64,000 nt of DNA, taken from NCBI GenBank assembly GCA_002238485.1, contig MPMG01000003.1, positions 186,001-250,000 on the forward strand. The letters run 5' to 3'. This document shows, one piece after another, positions 5,531 to 30,740 of this stretch. The notes below the pieces were generated by a model, which searched no databases, was not told the origin of the DNA, and worked only from the letters and a program-made list of their open reading frames with translations. Within the stretch, counting starts at the first letter, position 1. Every line of letters begins with the position of its first letter. The stretch comes from Chloroflexi bacterium bin20. Lineage in GTDB: Bacteria > Chloroflexota > Anaerolineae > Aggregatilineales > Phototrophicaceae. A program made the translations under genes and the position numbers.

Positions 5531-5632
5531 ATGAGCCGGGTCCCTTGCGGCAGTAGATTCCGAACCGTGTCAGGGCTTAACGGCAGCAGCACTAAGGAAA
5601 ACCTCTGGGTGTCTTGTGGTTTCCTGGCTCAT
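5531..5632 (+). ncRNA. ffs: bacterial small signal recognition particle RNA (4.5S RNA)
   Basis: About 102 bases with paired ends: ATGAGCC at 5531-5537 matches GGCTCAT at 5626-5632, and the stem continues inward. The core is the conserved domain IV: CCGAACCGTGTCAGG, an apical part, then CAGCAGCACTAAGG, the hallmark of bacterial SRP RNA, where Ffh binds the symmetric loop. The apical part GCUUAACGGC has the same length as the usual UCCGGAAGGA but ends in a UAAC tetraloop instead of GGAA. UAAC fits the URRC/UMAC class, which folds like GNRA. No protein gene fits this 257-base space, and a well-placed promoter precedes it. Ends are accurate to a few bases. Confidence 0.85.
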
Positions 5633-20705: not shown

Positions 20706-21821
20706 CTAGGCGTAGATTTGCGTCAACAGGGCGAACTCGTCAAAGACCGTCCACTCGTTGGCGATCAACCCGTCCTGAATCAAGTGATGCGTGATGCCCA
20801 GCAAGCGCACCGGATTGCCGGTCGGTTCGCCATAGCGGCCATAGCCCGTATGCGTGCCGCGCAGAGTCCAGCGCGTCGCTACCCGCCAGCCCGACTCGGC
20901 GTCGCCAACATGACAAAAATGATCGGTGCTGATGGCGAGATCTGGGAAGGGCGAAAGCAGCGACAGCACATAATTGTGAAAGTCGTTGATCCCCAGGAAA
21001 GAGCGGCCCGTGGGCCCCTCAAAGGCGAAGTTCTCGTGATAGAATTCGCGCGCTTTGTTCAACAAGCGCCAATTCCAGATTTCGTGAAACATCTGCCCAA
21101 TGAAATCTTCGGGGTCGAATGCCTCGCTGGGGCGGGAGATCCACTCGGCTGGCGGCAGCTGACCGATGCCACGTTCGATATCGCCAGCGATCTGCGCCGA
21201 AAACGCGGCATCATCACGCCCACGAGCAGCCATTTCTTTGGCTGTGGCGACAGGGTCCAAACCCAGCTGCAACACCTTGCTCAATTCATCGCGCACGACC
21301 CACTCTTCCACGACCATGTTGCGCTTGCACAGACAATCGGCGATGGCGAGATAGCTGACGCGCTTGCCAGTGGGCGGACCATAATTCGACCAGCCGCGGT
21401 TTGTGCCTTCGTGCATCAATCGATGCGAGGAATACAAGCCAACCTGGTCATCGCCGCCCCAGATCACCTCATCGCCATACAGCCGCCGGTCGGGATAAGC
21501 AGCCATGGCTTCAATGGTGCTGGCAAAGACGGCTTCGCGACCAAAAATCGTGCCGCTGGCCGTGTGAAAATGGATGGTGTTGGCATAATAGTCGTAGAGC
21601 TTGCCGATGCCTTTTTCTTCCCAGATTTCGTGGGTAATGCCGATGATATAGTCCACGAAATCGCGGTAGCGCGGATTGAAGCCCTCCATCGACATGGCGC
21701 GCTCGCTGGATTCGGGCATAAATTGGATGTCGAGCTTGTCCGCCAGCGTGATGTTTTTTGGGCTGTCCCCGTCTTTTGCCGCTAGCTGCAAATCCGTCGC
21801 TCGTTTGCTGTTTTCCGCCAT
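20706..21821 (-). CDS. SnoaL-like / NTF2-fold protein with two tandem domains, first gene of the triplet
   Basis: 371 residues, the most divergent of the three. A 50-residue polar N-terminus is followed by a domain with IGKLYDYYANTIHFHTASGTIFGREAVF and a second with REFYHENFAFEGPTGRSFLGINDFHNYV. Both show the NTF2/SnoaL order of helix, then strands with conserved His or acidic residues facing the cone. The C-terminal strand TRWTLRGTHTGYGRYGEPTG followed by ITHHLIQDGLIANEWTVFD is a classical SnoaL ending. GAGG about eight bases before the ATG. It heads the three-gene operon. Confidence 0.8.
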   Translation of the reverse strand: MAENSKRATDLQLAAKDGDSPKNITLADKLDIQFMPESSERAMSMEGFNPRYRDFVDYIIGITHEIWEEKGIGKLYDYYANTIHFHTASGTIFGREAVFASTIEAMAAYPDRRLYGDEVIWGGDDQVGLYSSHRLMHEGTNRGWSNYGPPTGKRVSYLAIADCLCKRNMVVEEWVVRDELSKVLQLGLDPVATAKEMAARGRDDAAFSAQIAGDIERGIGQLPPAEWISRPSEAFDPEDFIGQMFHEIWNWRLLNKAREFYHENFAFEGPTGRSFLGINDFHNYVLSLLSPFPDLAISTDHFCHVGDAESGWRVATRWTLRGTHTGYGRYGEPTGNPVRLLGITHHLIQDGLIANEWTVFDEFALLTQIYA

Positions 21822-21925
21822 TTTCTAACCTCGGTTCGCCCCGCCGCTGCGGCTCGTAAAAGTGATTCTGCTCTCGCCAAGCGACTCTACCCGCAAGACC
21901 AGGCAAAATCAAACGATGCCCAGCG

Positions 21926-21941
21926 TGGGAGTGGCGAATTT
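21926..21941 (-). repeat. copy C of a short dispersed intergenic repeat (inverted)
   Basis: The reverse complement, AAATTCGCCACTCCCA, is identical to 8322-8337. It lies in the 167-base space between the SnoaL operon and the racemase gene, in which I see no gene. Confidence 0.5.
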
Positions 21942-21988
21942 CCTGTACATAGCTTTCCTTCCATCCCCGACAACCCACCAGAATCCGC

Positions 21989-22729
21989 TCATGCCGTTGC
22001 CTCCCCCTGACCTGTCGGGGGACCGAGGGGAGTGCTTGTATCCAGCGCCCAATCCAGGGCCGCCAGAGCATGCAACTCTGTGCTGTCGTAGGTGGGCAAG
22101 GCAGAGTCCTGCGGCTTGATCAACAGGCTAATCTCGGTACAGCCCAGAATGACGGCTTGGGCGCCAGCCGCTCCCAACTGCTCGATAACGCGCTGATAGT
22201 CACGCCGTGACTCGTCGCGGATCTCGCCGCGCACCAGCTCGTCATAGATGATGCCATGCACGACTTCGCAGCCGGCTTCGTCCGGGATGAGCACGTTCAA
22301 GCCATGTTGCTCGCTCAGTCGCCCACGATAGAAATCCTGCTGCATGGTGAAGCGCGTGCCCAGCAGACCGACAATTCGCATACCAGCCTGCAAGATGGGC
22401 TGGGCTGTGGCATCGGCGATGTGAATCAATGGCAAGTCGATGGCTGCCTGCACGGCCTCCGCCATCCGGTGCATGGTGTTGCTGCAGATGACGATGCAGC
22501 CAGCGTCCGCTGCTTCCAGCTGTTGCGCTGCCGATACCATGCGTCGGCTTGCCGCCGCCCAGTCGCCCGCCACTTGCAGGGCTTCGATCTCGGCGAAGTC
22601 GAAAGACAGCATCAGGCAGTCGGCAGAATGCAAGCCGCCCAGTCGTCGCTGCGCTTCTTGGTTGATGATGCGATAATATTCGACGCTCGATTCCCAACTC
22701 AAGCCGCCGATCAAACCAATTCGTCGCAT
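21989..22729 (-). CDS. aspartate/glutamate racemase family protein
   Basis: 246 residues. MRRIGLIGGLSWESSVEYY is the standard family start. The two catalytic cysteines are Cys82 in CSNTMH and Cys197 in GCTE, so the protein can do two-base racemisation or a related isomerisation of aspartate-like substrates. The last dozen residues (TPLGPPTGQGEATA) are not family sequence: they are encoded by palindromic repeat R2, which also provides the end of the reading frame. The gene is divergent from the TPR genes, with about 60 bases between. Confidence 0.88.
   Translation of the reverse strand: MRRIGLIGGLSWESSVEYYRIINQEAQRRLGGLHSADCLMLSFDFAEIEALQVAGDWAAASRRMVSAAQQLEAADAGCIVICSNTMHRMAEAVQAAIDLPLIHIADATAQPILQAGMRIVGLLGTRFTMQQDFYRGRLSEQHGLNVLIPDEAGCEVVHGIIYDELVRGEIRDESRRDYQRVIEQLGAAGAQAVILGCTEISLLIKPQDSALPTYDSTELHALAALDWALDTSTPLGPPTGQGEATA
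21999..22030 (+). repeat. dispersed palindromic C/G-tract repeat, copy R2
   Basis: GCCTCCCCCTGACCTGTCGG followed by GGGACCGAGGGG. Nearly identical to the inverted copy R3 at 33506-33541 except for one C in a homopolymer. It lies within the 3' end of the racemase gene, antisense to it, and contributes the C-terminal codons. Confidence 0.8.
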
Positions 22730-25325: not shown

Positions 25326-28300
25326 ATGAGCGTCATCAGCGACTATCTTTCGGAAATTCAATCCAAGTACAAGACCGATGTAGCCGGCGAACACGCCTAT
25401 CGCCCGGCGCTGGAGAAACTGCTGCAATCGGCGGACGCTGGACTGAACGCCGTCAACGACCCAGCGCGTACAGCAATTGGCATGCCCGATTTCGTCGTTC
25501 TGCGTCAGCCCGGCAACGTGCCCATTGGCATCGTCGAAGCGAAAGACATCGGCAACCAGTTGAGCCGTACCGAAAAGACAGGGCAAATCAAGCGATACCT
25601 GGCGCATGGCAATCTGATTCTGACGAATTACCTGGAGTTTCGCTGGTATGTGAATGGAGAAAAGATCGAAACCGTCCGAATAGCAAGAGTAAAGAGCGGC
25701 AAGATAACCCGCATCTCTACAGCTTACGGCGACTTGACCAATATGCTGCGTCGATTCGCCCAGCAAACGACCCAATCTGTGAACAGCGCCCAGGAATTGG
25801 CGGAGCGGCTCGCTCGCAGCGCGCAGTTCATCGCGCACTTTATTGAAAAGGATCTCAAGAGCAGTACACCAAGCGCGAATCTGCAAAATCAGATGGCTGC
25901 CTTCCAGAAAACGTTGCTGCCCGATCTCGACATCGCCAGTTTCGCCGATATGTACGCTCAAACCCTCGCTTACGGGCTATTTGCATCACGGGTGAATTAT
26001 CCCGGCGATCCGTCAAAATTTAGCTTGCTCGGGGCGGCCGAAGACATACCCCGCACCAATCCCTTCCTGCGCGACCTCTTCTATCACAGCCGCTTCGACA
26101 TCGGCAAACGACTAACATGGATGGCTGAGAGCCTGGTCGAGATCCTGCGCCACACCGATATGGACAGCATCCTCGCTCACTTCGGTCGGCGAACTGCACA
26201 GACCGACCCCGTTCTGCATTTCTACGAGACCTTCCTGCGCGCCTACAATCCGAGTCTGCGAGAAACGCGCGGCGTCTACTACACGCCCGAGCCAGTCGTG
26301 AAATACATCGTGCGCAGCGTCGACCACATCCTCAAAACCCGTTTTGATCGACCGCGCGGATTGGCCGACGAGAACGCGCTGATTCTTGATCCAGCCGTAG
26401 GGACGGGAACATTCCTGTATTTTGTCATTGAGCAGATAAAAGAGGCATTCGCCGGTCAGCAGGGCTTGTGGAAGAGCTATGTACGGGAGCACCTGCTGCC
26501 GCGCCTCTTCGGCTTCGAACTGCTGATGGCACCCTACACCGTCGCTCACATGAACCTGAGCTTGCAATTAAAAGATGCCGGTTATGACTTCAAGGAAGGC
26601 GAACGGCTGGGCATCTATTTGACCAATTCACTGGAAGAAGCGGTCGAAGCGCCGCCGCTGCCCTTTGCCAATTTCATCGTCGAAGAAGCCAACACCGCCG
26701 CCGAAATCAAGCGCGACAAGCCGATAATGGTCGTGCTTGGCAATCCGCCATACTCCATTCACTCCGAAAATGACGGTAAATTGATAAACCAACTGATGGA
26801 GCGGTACAAAGCTTTGGTCCGACACGAACAGAACATTCAACCTCTATCAGATGACTACATCAAGTTTCTTCGCTTCGCTCACGATAGAATTGAACGCACA
26901 GGTCATGGTGTAATTGGATTCATTACGAATCATACGTACTTGACTGGTCTACTGCATAGAGGAATGCGAAGCGAACTTATCAAGTCGTTTGATGAGATAT
27001 ATATTCTTGACCTACACGGCAATTATCGTAGAGGATTGTCTTCACCAGATGGGGCGGCCGATGAAAATGTCTTTGATATCGGACAAGGCGTAGCAATAGT
27101 CGTTTTGGTCAAACTGGAGAAAAGCACTGCCGACACAGGTGTATACCATTTCGAACTTTGGGGAAAGCGACCCTTTAAGTATCGTTACTTGAAGAGGAAT
27201 TCTATCCGGACGACACGATGGAATAAACTTCAACCTAGTTCGCCGAACTACTTCTTTGCTCCACATGATGACACCCACTCTGAAGAATACAATTGCTACG
27301 TTAGTGTCGAAAACGTCTTCGGAAGTAAGAGTACTGGGTTCGAAACTGGAAGGGATGCACACCTTATCCAGTTTGATAAGCATAGCATTAGGCACTTAGT
27401 AGCAGATTTGGCTAACCAAGAAATCAGCCCTGCCAAAATTGAGGAGTGTTACTCTATCAGGAACACAAGTGGCTGGAATGTGTCAAAGAGGCGCACGGCT
27501 TTGTTCAATAAGGGATATCAATGCAGACATAATCGTGCGATATCTTATCGACCCTTCGATTCAAGATTTACCTATTACCATGGTTTATTGCGTCGAGCAC
27601 AGTGGGAGAATCTGCGCCATACTTTGCGGGATAATCTCGCGCTAATTGCATCAAGAATCATCAAGGGCGAAATTCCGAATCATGCCTTTGTTTCGACCCT
27701 TCCTGTTGAAAAGATATTCCTATCGCCAAGAACCTCCAACAATGCCTTCGTATTCCCTCTTTATTTGTTCCCCAAGACTGACGAGGTTGACACAGGCGAT
27801 GACGCCAGCGAATTCCCGCTAAGCCACAAGGGCCGCCGACCCAACCTGTCCAAAGCCTTTGTCGCCGACATGGAAACCAAACTCGGCCTGCCCTTCCAAA
27901 CCGAAGGCAGCGCTTTTGCCGAAGGCGATGACGCGCCCGATTGCTTCGGTCCCGAAGATGTCTTCTATTACGCCTACGCCATTTTCCACAGCCCGACCTA
28001 CCGCGAGCGTTACGCAGAGTTCCTTAAAATCGACTTCCCTCGCCTGCCCTTAACAGCAGATCTGAGCCTCTTTGCCAATTTGGTCAAGCTCGGCGCGGAG
28101 TTAGTAGACCTGCACCTGATGAAATCGGCGAAGCTGTCGGACTTCATTACGACATTTGATATTGAAGGCGACAATGAAGTAGCTCGTGGATTTCCTAAAT
28201 ACAACGAGGTCAAGCAATGTGTGGAAATCAACAAGACTCAATACTTCGGCGGCATTTCGCCCGAAATCTGGGACTTCCACATCGGCGGCTATCGCGTGGC

Positions 28301-28445
28301 CGACAAATGGCTTAAAGACCGGCGCGGCCGAAAACTAGCATACGAAGACTTGAAGCACTATCAGAAAATCATCGTCGCTCTGTCGGAAACCAGGCGCATC
28401 ATGTCCGAAATCGACGCAGCGATTCCGCGTTTCCCGATAGCGTAG
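25326..28445 (+). CDS. single-polypeptide restriction-modification enzyme (type IIG / ISP-like, N6-adenine)
   Basis: 1039 residues. The N-terminal nuclease has a PD-(D/E)xK core: Asp55 in GMPDFVVL and Glu71-x-Lys73 in IVEAK. Next is the methyltransferase: ETRGVYYTPEPVV, SAM-binding motif I LDPAVGTGTF (about 354) and the N6-adenine motif NPPYS (about 472). The C-terminal end carries the pattern GGYRVADKWLKDRRGR and HYQKIIVALSETRRIM, typical of the specificity domain of LlaBIII/type ISP-related enzymes. There is no helicase part. Bases of about 26.76-27.76 kb are visibly AT-richer than both ends, suggesting replacement of the target-recognition region. No separate specificity or regulatory gene is adjacent. 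Confidence 0.88.
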   Translation: MSVISDYLSEIQSKYKTDVAGEHAYRPALEKLLQSADAGLNAVNDPARTAIGMPDFVVLRQPGNVPIGIVEAKDIGNQLSRTEKTGQIKRYLAHGNLILTNYLEFRWYVNGEKIETVRIARVKSGKITRISTAYGDLTNMLRRFAQQTTQSVNSAQELAERLARSAQFIAHFIEKDLKSSTPSANLQNQMAAFQKTLLPDLDIASFADMYAQTLAYGLFASRVNYPGDPSKFSLLGAAEDIPRTNPFLRDLFYHSRFDIGKRLTWMAESLVEILRHTDMDSILAHFGRRTAQTDPVLHFYETFLRAYNPSLRETRGVYYTPEPVVKYIVRSVDHILKTRFDRPRGLADENALILDPAVGTGTFLYFVIEQIKEAFAGQQGLWKSYVREHLLPRLFGFELLMAPYTVAHMNLSLQLKDAGYDFKEGERLGIYLTNSLEEAVEAPPLPFANFIVEEANTAAEIKRDKPIMVVLGNPPYSIHSENDGKLINQLMERYKALVRHEQNIQPLSDDYIKFLRFAHDRIERTGHGVIGFITNHTYLTGLLHRGMRSELIKSFDEIYILDLHGNYRRGLSSPDGAADENVFDIGQGVAIVVLVKLEKSTADTGVYHFELWGKRPFKYRYLKRNSIRTTRWNKLQPSSPNYFFAPHDDTHSEEYNCYVSVENVFGSKSTGFETGRDAHLIQFDKHSIRHLVADLANQEISPAKIEECYSIRNTSGWNVSKRRTALFNKGYQCRHNRAISYRPFDSRFTYYHGLLRRAQWENLRHTLRDNLALIASRIIKGEIPNHAFVSTLPVEKIFLSPRTSNNAFVFPLYLFPKTDEVDTGDDASEFPLSHKGRRPNLSKAFVADMETKLGLPFQTEGSAFAEGDDAPDCFGPEDVFYYAYAIFHSPTYRERYAEFLKIDFPRLPLTADLSLFANLVKLGAELVDLHLMKSAKLSDFITTFDIEGDNEVARGFPKYNEVKQCVEINKTQYFGGISPEIWDFHIGGYRVADKWLKDRRGRKLAYEDLKHYQKIIVALSETRRIMSEIDAAIPRFPIA

Positions 28446-28449
28446 CTGC

Positions 28450-29901
28450 CTAAATCTCAGCCAATTCCCGCCAAGCCTCGCCGATGCGCAGAAAGCCTTC
28501 TTCAATTAGGGCTGGCGGATGCAGGCCGAAGTTCAGCCGCAGCGCATGTTTGTGTCCGCCACGCGTCGAGAATTGATTGCCCGGCGCAAAAGCTGCTCCT
28601 TGTTCCAGCGCCGCTTGCAGCAAGTCCGCCGCGTTGGGGCCCGCCGCCGGCAGCTCTGCCCACAGATACAAGCCGCCCTGCGGAGAAAACCAGCTTGCGC
28701 CAGCTGGAAAGTGTCGCTGGGCAGCCGCCAATGCCGCTCCTCGCCGCCGCCGCAGTTCCAGCCGATTACGCTCCAGTTGCTTCCCCAGCACGCCCCGCTC
28801 CAGCAGCAGGTGAATAGCGCGCTGATTCAAGCCCGATGTCGAGATATCAGCCGCTTGTTTGACCCGCACCAGCCGTTCGTACCATGCGCCGTCCGCCACA
28901 AGATAACCGATGCGCACGCCCGGCAGCAGCACCTTGGTGAAGGCGTTGGTATGAATGACCACGCCGCTTTCATCCAGCGCCTTTAACGGAGGCAGCGCCT
29001 CGCCATCAAAGCGGAATTCGCGGTAGACCTCGTCTTCCAGGACGGGGATGCGCAGCCGGGCCGCGAGTCGCACCAGTTGTCGGCGGCGGTGCAGGGGCAT
29101 CAAGTGTCCGGTCGGGTTTTGATAGCTGGGCATGACATAGATGAGGCGAGGCTGCAAGTCGCGGCAAGCCCGCTCCAAGGCATCGATGCGTATGCCCTGG
29201 TCATCGACCGGCAAGCCATGGATGCGCACGCGCCGCGCCTGGGCGATGTCGATGATGCCCAGATAGGTCGGGTCGGCGGTCAGCAAGGTCTCGCCTTGCT
29301 TCATCAGCGATTGCACGACCAGGTCGATGGCTTGCTGTGCGCCGCCGGTGATCAACACATCCTGGTGGCGGCAACGAATGCCAATCGCCCGCACATAATC
29401 GCGCACGGCGATGCGCAGCGGTTGATACCCTTCCGCCACTTCGTAGGACAGAGCGTCTGCGCCATCTCGATCGATGACTTGATTGATGGCGTCTTGCAGA
29501 TAGCGCACCGGGAAGAACTCGGTGGGTGGCGTGCCGCCGCTGAAGTCGATGATGCCTTCACGGCGGTCTTTGCGCAGCATGTGACGCAGGGCGGGGGCGC
29601 GCCGACTCGGTTCGGGAAGCTGTGAGCGAGGCATGGCGCTGGGGACCGTCTGGCGCGCGACATAGGTGCCTTTGCCCACCTGGCTGCTGAGCAAACCTGC
29701 GCCGCGCAGTTCGCTGTAGGCATTGACGACGCTGATGCGGCTGATGTCCTGCTGGCGGGCGAGCGAGCGGCTGGCTGGCAGACGAGCGCCGGCGGGCAGA
29801 TCGCCGCTTTCGATCATGCTGCGGATTTGCGCGATCAGCTGGCGATAGATCGGTGTTGCGCTTTTGCGGTCCAGTGTGATGTTGAGCGCCGACTTGGTCA
29901 T
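28450..29901 (-). CDS. MocR/PdxR-type GntR regulator with aminotransferase domain
   Basis: 483 residues. The N-terminal GntR winged helix (about 1-75) has PIYRQLIAQIRSMIESGDL and LPASRSLARQQDISR. A linker leads to a fold-type-I aminotransferase domain (about 110-480) with YQNPTGHLMP and the PLP lysine in AFTKVLLPGVRIGY. Such proteins sense PLP or a related amino compound and control genes for PLP synthesis, GABA or transport. The neighbours do not point to a target. It converges with the restriction-modification gene, leaving a gap of four bases. Start chosen at MTKSALN, just before the winged helix. Confidence 0.9.
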   Translation of the reverse strand: MTKSALNITLDRKSATPIYRQLIAQIRSMIESGDLPAGARLPASRSLARQQDISRISVVNAYSELRGAGLLSSQVGKGTYVARQTVPSAMPRSQLPEPSRRAPALRHMLRKDRREGIIDFSGGTPPTEFFPVRYLQDAINQVIDRDGADALSYEVAEGYQPLRIAVRDYVRAIGIRCRHQDVLITGGAQQAIDLVVQSLMKQGETLLTADPTYLGIIDIAQARRVRIHGLPVDDQGIRIDALERACRDLQPRLIYVMPSYQNPTGHLMPLHRRRQLVRLAARLRIPVLEDEVYREFRFDGEALPPLKALDESGVVIHTNAFTKVLLPGVRIGYLVADGAWYERLVRVKQAADISTSGLNQRAIHLLLERGVLGKQLERNRLELRRRRGAALAAAQRHFPAGASWFSPQGGLYLWAELPAAGPNAADLLQAALEQGAAFAPGNQFSTRGGHKHALRLNFGLHPPALIEEGFLRIGEAWRELAEI

Positions 29902-29993
29902 CATGATCAAGACTATAGCGCTTGACAAGCCCAATCTGCCACGCGCTGTCGGACAAGCGGCGCCGTTGGCATTTCAGGTGATGCGCGCCCCTG

Positions 29994-30032: not shown

Positions 30033-30740
30033 ATGGCAACGCGCAGCGACAGCGCCGGGCTGGAAAAAGCCCATCTGCTGGATATGTTGCCCACAGAGGC
30101 AGGGCATGTGCTGGAGATAGGCTGTGGCGACGGGCGACTGACACGCAAGTACCACGATCGCGCCAAGAGCGTGGTGGGCATCGATCTGCCAGATACCTTG
30201 GAGACAGCCAGTTTCGATGACATGCCACAAGCGCAGTGCCTGGCTGCCAGCGCCATAGAACTCCCCTTCCGCGATGGTTGCTTTGACGGGGCGATCTTCG
30301 CGCTGTCATTCTGATGAATCGACATTGAGGGCATGGTCCATGCCCTGTCAGAAGCGCGGCGAACGCTCAAGCCCGGCGGTTGGCTGATCGACCTGCGCCC
30401 CACCAAGCGCGACCGCAGAATCGAGCTGGATATGCCCGGCGGCTGCGTGTACATCGGCGAGGTTGATGCCAGCGCCACCAGCCCTGAGCGCGACGCGGCC
30501 GACGCTGCGCTGGGTGATGCCATCGCTGCGAAGCAATTGCGCGCCCGGCACAGCGCTCTTTTCGAGATCGTCATCGACTGCGACAGCGCTGATGACCTGC
30601 GCGACTATGCGAAAGGATTCCGTCGCAGCCGGTTGCCCGCCTTTATCCTGCCGCGAATCGAAGAATTGACCGCCCATGCCGACGACTTCCTCATCCGCAT
30701 CCGCCGCGAAATGACCATCGCGCTGTATAGACGTCTCTAG
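30033..30740 (+). CDS. SAM-dependent methyltransferase with two consecutive in-frame UGA codons; putative tandem-selenocysteine protein
   Basis: Seen: one frame runs from ATG 30033 to TAG 30740 (235 residues) and is broken only by TGA TGA at 30312-30317 (residues 94 and 95). Before them lie motif I VLEIGCGDGRL, VVGIDLP and FDGAIFALSF; after them IDIEGMVHALSEARRTLKPG and a normal C-terminal half. The two halves make one complete class I methyltransferase, with no frame change. A hairpin with a GGUC loop starts 11 bases after the second UGA. Known: bacterial selenocysteine insertion needs UGA plus a SECIS hairpin close downstream. Inferred: both UGA codons may be read as selenocysteine at a position where, as I recall, relatives carry Cys-Cys. 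Alternatives are a pseudogene or separate ORFs 30033-30314 and 30333-30740. Confidence 0.65.
30329..30345 (+). promoter_or_regulatory. bacterial SECIS-like hairpin inside the methyltransferase gene
   Basis: GGGCAT-GGTCC-ATGCCC: a six-base-pair G/C-rich stem with a five-base loop; the full inverted repeat is GGGCATGG/CCATGCCC. The loop has GGUC, as in the E. coli fdhF SECIS, where the loop G and U contact SelB. GGUC starts 17 bases after the second UGA and 20 after the first; in fdhF the distance is 18. Confidence 0.6.

Follow-up and report, generated by a model that had tools for sequence, protein, structure and literature searches.

A predicted SECIS hairpin downstream of two adjacent UGA codons in a family of bacterial methyltransferase genes

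Bacterial selenocysteine (Sec) insertion is so far understood as a process of one hairpin per UGA, in which SelB on the hairpin is tightly coupled to the codon in the ribosomal A site. The locus described here lies in a 64,000-nucleotide stretch of DNA (the window) and carries a methyltransferase gene with two adjacent in-frame TGA codons, followed by one hairpin at positions 30329-30345. This arrangement raises the question of whether a single hairpin can serve two neighboring UGAs. Judged from comparative sequence data, it is highly probable that the gene encodes a methyltransferase with two consecutive Sec residues and that the hairpin is a single bacterial SECIS recruiting SelB for both.

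The hairpin is present exactly as the first-pass annotation described it (GGGCAT/GGTCC/ATGCCC), and the spacings given there are also correct, with the loop beginning 17 bases from the second TGA and 20 bases from the first, both in frame (Table 1). Bacterial SECIS (bSECIS) elements follow a consensus in which an upper stem of 4-16 bp carries an apical loop of 3-9 bases, a G occupies loop position 1, 2 or both and is usually followed by G or U, the apical loop lies 16-37 bases from the UGA, and the minimum free energy (MFE) is -7.5 kcal/mol or lower (PMC13188914 Fig. 2). Here, a five-base loop (three bases if G35-C39 is paired) sits on 6-8 bp. The second loop base is G in all 102 sequences, and the next base is U in 100 of them, the exceptions being L087 and L148, where the U is replaced by G. 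Both UGAs fall within the distance range. The 17-base hairpin alone folds at -9.9 kcal/mol, a value equalled by 3 of 200 shuffles, and a 19-base version folds at -11.5 kcal/mol. The folding program draws a 3-base loop, with G35 and C39 (30335/30339) able to pair. Relatives often cannot form this closing pair, having GG, CC or CA instead, so the 5-base loop is the better consensus. Single-sequence folding of a 57-base segment gives a z of -1.2 for the window and a different fold as the MFE structure of L101; it is not decisive, and the case therefore rests on covariation.

Table 1. Features of the methyltransferase locus and of the surrounding window (positions in the window).
Feature	Position	Strand	Basis or remark
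Class I SAM-dependent methyltransferase gene, 235 residues, U94 U95 (predicted), stop TAG	30033..30740	+	TGA=U translation, Pfam, AF2
SAM-binding motif I LEIGCGDGR, residues 27-35, 5' of the UGAs	30111..30137	+	(nearly) invariant in 50 members
First UGA, Sec94 (predicted)	30312..30314	+	TGA 97/102, TGT/TGC 5/102
Second UGA, Sec95 (predicted)	30315..30317	+	TGA 89/102, TGC/TGT 13/102
Spacer from second UGA to stem, 11 bases (first UGA to stem, 14)	30318..30328	+	length constant in every member
Predicted SECIS stem, 5' arm GGGCAT	30329..30334	+	covaries with 3' arm
Predicted SECIS loop GGTCC (consensus NGUNN; conserved GU = G30336 + U30337)	30335..30339	+	conservation
Predicted SECIS stem, 3' arm ATGCCC	30340..30345	+	covaries with 5' arm; synonymous constraint
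Bacterial small SRP RNA	5534-5632	+	43.6 bits
Large ORF resembling Type I/ISP-like restriction-modification methylases	25326-28445		adjoins the MocR-like regulator
MocR-like regulator	28450-29934	-	

Covariation of the stem was assessed in 101 aligned sequences. The six pairs are formed in 99.7% of cells, compared to 95.5% in shuffles, and 29 cells show a double change, compared to 3.5 in shuffles; none of 500 shuffles matched either value. Pairing is lost in just 2 of 606 cells, and a shifted partner register leaves at most 57% paired. RNAalifold on 57 bases returns the same hairpin and no other structure. On the tree, the second pair changed state six times and the remaining pairs zero to five times. 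Uncompensated stem changes in orthologues that keep the UGA codons had been named in the first-pass annotation as the observation that would speak against the hairpin. When this comparison was run, five of the six pairs proved to be altered on both sides, with compensation.

One of the two compensating changes is often synonymous. Of 17 sequences with a Gly to Ser change at codon +6 from the first UGA, 15 have a matching silent GCC to GCT change in their Ala codon at +10, against 0 of 85 otherwise, and an A to G change in the first base of codon +7 is matched by T to C in the third base of codon +9 (CAT-type to CAC-type) in 9 of 9, against 0 of 93. L148 has SVGDTL in place of the peptide GMVHAL, yet its six pairs are all intact as GAGTGT/ACACTC. 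Conservation of the GMVHAL peptide thus owes much to the RNA. Within the genus of the window (32 sequences), the stem bases change on one side only, with G-U pairs as the result. The only mismatches are one A-C each in L144, a UC member, and L146, a CU member, where U is Sec and C is Cys. These two loci have a single UGA each, and their genomes, both of family f55, are fragmented. Their hairpins are perhaps elements weakened after the loss of one Sec.

Synonymous sites point to the same bases. In the 32 congeneric sequences, codons 99, 103 and 104 are the only ones of 229 scored that lack synonymous variation, and each of them has its third base in the stem. In the stretch from codon -12 to codon +29 relative to the first UGA, synonymous-site constraint is found only at +5, +6, +9 and +10, where the ratio of observed to expected entropy is 0.21-0.40; it is at least 0.68 at all other codons. 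Since only the hairpin codons are constrained in this way, this stretch shows no second conserved element. Taken on this comparative evidence, the hairpin is genuine and very probably works as a bacterial SECIS.

The wider family was collected by scans of GTDB species genomes and of 400 Chloroflexota genomes, and almost all of its members come from metagenome assemblies. Matches were found in 45 of the 400 Chloroflexota genomes, each with one or two in-frame TGAs, and among the matches listed the family extends over Chloroflexota, Acidobacteriota, Actinomycetota, Armatimonadota and ANGP1. Plasmid records yielded remote methyltransferases only. Homology continues through the UGAs and well past them. 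The 102 distinct sequences among the matches listed have UU (84), UC (13) or CU (5) at the two positions and nothing else, with TGA, TGT and TGC as the only codons. TGG, CGA and other single-step neighbors of TGA never appear; the constraint is therefore for Sec or Cys. The Cys-Cys form was found in 0 of the 80 loci kept among the matches listed, although a back-translated Cys-Cys pattern was included in the scan. The nearest Sec-free homologues have AWPLRQI (L118) or SLHH (L113, L123) at the UU position, and they are possible ancestors or losses. Two genomes hold two family copies: in G124 (C16:16716-17435 and 21606-22334) the copies lie about 5 kb apart with one in-frame TGA each, and in G447 one copy has two TGAs and the other has one.

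The position of the hairpin, including its spacing from the UGAs, is the same in all family members. The tree requires 12 changes among UU, UC and CU in all, with CU arising twice, and in none of them is the hairpin displaced. The UC and CU members thus amount to natural constructs with one UGA each, 20 bases from the loop in UC and 17 in CU. The proposal that a single hairpin serves two UGAs, raised in the first-pass annotation as a test case, gains comparative support from these members, which keep the hairpin, and from the synonymous constraint, which near the UGAs is confined to it. In terms of these sequence comparisons, one hairpin most likely serves both codons.

The best surviving alternative is that the SECIS is real but tuned to one UGA, with the other decoded by a separate route or inefficiently, such as by near-cognate read-through or with an unseen second element. 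The second UGA stands at the spacing of Escherichia coli fdhF, and the first is one codon farther away. Moreover, the yield of Sec per UGA in E. coli is only 30-40%, both in vitro and in vivo (PMC4513850), so that double insertion could be rare; under independent loading this yield would give roughly 10-15% full-length product. Against such tuning, the first UGA is the better conserved of the two (97 vs 89 of 102), UC forms with the first UGA alone recur with the same hairpin, the published range of 16-37 bases includes both spacings, and no further conserved element accompanies the hairpin in the codons surveyed. We consider tuning to one UGA unlikely. A full-length yield clearly above 10-15% would point to coupling of the two insertions.

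A second alternative is that the UGAs are real stops, in which case the locus would be a pseudogene, or would encode a 93-residue protein and a separate 135-residue protein, and the hairpin would be either a palindrome that arose by chance or an element of local regulation. Standard translation does yield two ORFs, at 30033..30314 and 30333..30740. The break, however, would split the methyltransferase domain: the Pfam model Methyltransf_11 matches residues 27-119 (1.6e-16) with both UGAs inside the match. Furthermore, both codons persist between intact frames in 32 congeneric genomes as well as across phyla, Cys codons are their sole replacements, and the covariation would be left without a reason. 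Real stops are therefore very improbable.

The genome of the window encodes a tRNA-Sec (65.6 bits, anticodon TCA), SelA (541 bits) and SelB (342 bits), as well as a SelD that carries an in-frame TGA of its own. The selD gene (L046, G000:C15:613456-614391) has a hairpin about 32 bases past its TGA with the loop GGUUC, which resembles GGUCC; the same SelB may read this hairpin as a second SECIS. The third alternative, that a variant tRNA reads the UGAs as Cys or another standard residue with no selenium involved, is scarcely credible: replacement by Cys codons only is also compatible with UGA read as Cys, but the Sec pathway is complete, the covarying hairpin has the form of a SECIS, UGA ends other genes in these genomes, and several congeneric copies of the methyltransferase itself stop at TGA.

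SelB is present in 34 of 34 genomes of the genus, and the methyltransferase gene in 32 of them. Each copy has two in-frame TGAs, adjacent as TGATGA and followed by the hairpin (32 of 32), and the 31 other congeneric copies are 47-79% identical in protein sequence to that of the window. The two congeners without the methyltransferase, G009 and G013, do have SelB; they may have lost the gene or have a gap in their assemblies. In a broader sample, SelB occurs in 41 of 44 gene-positive genomes and in 17 of 20 genomes of the class that lack the gene; being common in the latter, it has no discriminating power for the presence of the gene. Three gene-positive genomes are exceptions: in G104 a partial SelB lies at a contig edge, G346 is 84% complete, and the third is G155. 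With a covariance model applied to the best 150 first-look candidates of each genome, the element was found once per genome in 19 of 19 congeners with the gene and was absent among the same number of candidates from 2 gene-free congeners and 13 genomes of other genera.

The protein is predicted to be a class I methyltransferase. An AF2 model (mean pLDDT 93, pTM 0.88) has the Rossmann-like class I fold, and comparison of this model with solved structures gives many class I enzymes at Z 14.7-16.8, with NodS at 16.8. Naming a substrate from the fold was rejected, as GtmA (gliotoxin S-methyltransferase), TmtA and many others score too evenly within that range. Among 50 diverse members, the invariant residues include motif I and both U/C positions. 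A profile alignment places the UU pair immediately past strand 4, at the position of the HH in RebM and AtmM and of the CH in TleD. In the class I fold, this position adjoins the SAM pocket. From its place after strand 4, at the HH site of RebM-like methyltransferases, the UU pair probably takes part in catalysis or in the binding of a soft substrate; that such a substrate is a thiol, selenol, metal or metalloid is a guess.

Gene order within the genus is kept, with a MocR-like regulator, the methyltransferase and a BMP-type binding protein, and reflects descent more than function. Outside the genus, the 110 neighboring ORFs around divergent members share no gene family, the commonest being MFS_1 in 5, and the genes immediately upstream differ. 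With no conserved neighbor beyond the genus, no substrate can be inferred from gene context.

We infer SelB binding to the hairpin, Sec decoding of both UGAs and a mode of SelB reloading that might run as follows. With the first UGA in the A site, the stem would begin 14 bases ahead, and the first Sec would come from SelB-GTP-Sec-tRNASec bound to the loop GU. One translocation would bring the second UGA into the A site with the stem, still folded, 11 bases ahead. The ribosome covers approximately 11 bases of its entry tunnel (PMC4513850), so the stem should not yet have unwound when the second UGA is decoded. Until it does unwind, the second Sec would be delivered either by a new SelB complex or by the first SelB after recharging. 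A more specific reading can be offered only tentatively: the hairpin would be a double-decoding SECIS on which SelB perhaps stays bound and is recharged, and the Sec-Sec pair would form the active-site element of a methyltransferase family that is so far undescribed and occurs in at least 4 phyla.

This large family, with one hairpin, two adjacent UGAs and natural UC and CU versions at the same positions, makes several aspects of Sec insertion testable, namely SelB reloading, the tolerated UGA-hairpin distance and the means by which the ribosome avoids release when it reaches the second UGA. Its members, which gene callers split or truncate at the UGAs, make up an additional, probable family of selenoproteins, and it places a predicted consecutive Sec pair at a methyltransferase active site.

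The first-pass annotation had likened the hairpin to the E. coli fdhF SECIS. The fdhF stem begins 11 bases after the UGA and has a bulged U in its upper stem and a GGUC loop. Both are hairpins within the coding sequence with a small loop containing G and U, and the likeness holds for spacing and loop: the 11-base gap is found here from the second UGA, and the GG-U-C loop is 17 bases from that UGA here and 18 in fdhF. It does not extend to the stem, in which there is no bulged U and, in the register common to all members, no bulge. The present hairpin also has two upstream UGAs rather than one, and a loop of five rather than four bases.

The probable selenoprotein family described here is absent from the catalogues searched, and it has two adjacent UGAs under one bSECIS-like hairpin. 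An inventory of prokaryotic selenoproteins from 2026, with 119 families and subfamilies, contains no UU motif, and its methyltransferase entries are UxxG or CxxU (PMC13188914). Neither consecutive Sec in bacteria nor a SECIS serving two adjacent UGAs was found in the literature searched, subscription papers lying mostly outside the search. With the protein of the window and with six divergent relatives, all NCBIfam models stay below their cut-offs. The ArsM selenoproteins and fusions (NF008823, NF041536, NF041537) are likewise bacterial proteins with a class I SAM-methyltransferase domain and Sec; however, their motif is UxxG, not UU (PMC13188914), they are longer, and scores here are far below the cut-offs. 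The arsenite methyltransferase model NF008823 has no match listed here and gives 27 bits for L101 (cut-off 263). MduS (NF045649) and the methyltransferase/UXPK-star family (NF047649) share a methyltransferase domain and two Sec with this family but have the listed motifs CxxU and UxxG, in which Sec is not consecutive. Their models (cut-offs 380 and 460) give 22-35 bits in the protein of the window and its relatives, with MduS at 22 bits here and at most 35 in relatives. Two further models also score below cut-off, the DVU_1556 family (NF045667; 50 bits here, 28-44 in relatives, cut-off 155) and the corrinoid protein-associated CpaM (NF043040; 45 bits here, at most 71 in relatives, cut-off 180).

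Consecutive Sec-Sec is known from the algal PDI_e, which has the motif GUGUU and was termed the first such case by its authors (PMC7539508). PDI_e shares the consecutive pair with the present family but is eukaryotic, has its SECIS outside the coding frame and belongs to another protein family. The RebM/AtmM sugar O-methyltransferases and TleD (3bus, 6uv6, 5gm1) differ in having no Sec, about 20% identity and other substrates, yet they are the best sequence and fold matches, and the UU pair lies on their SLHH motif (SLCH in TleD).
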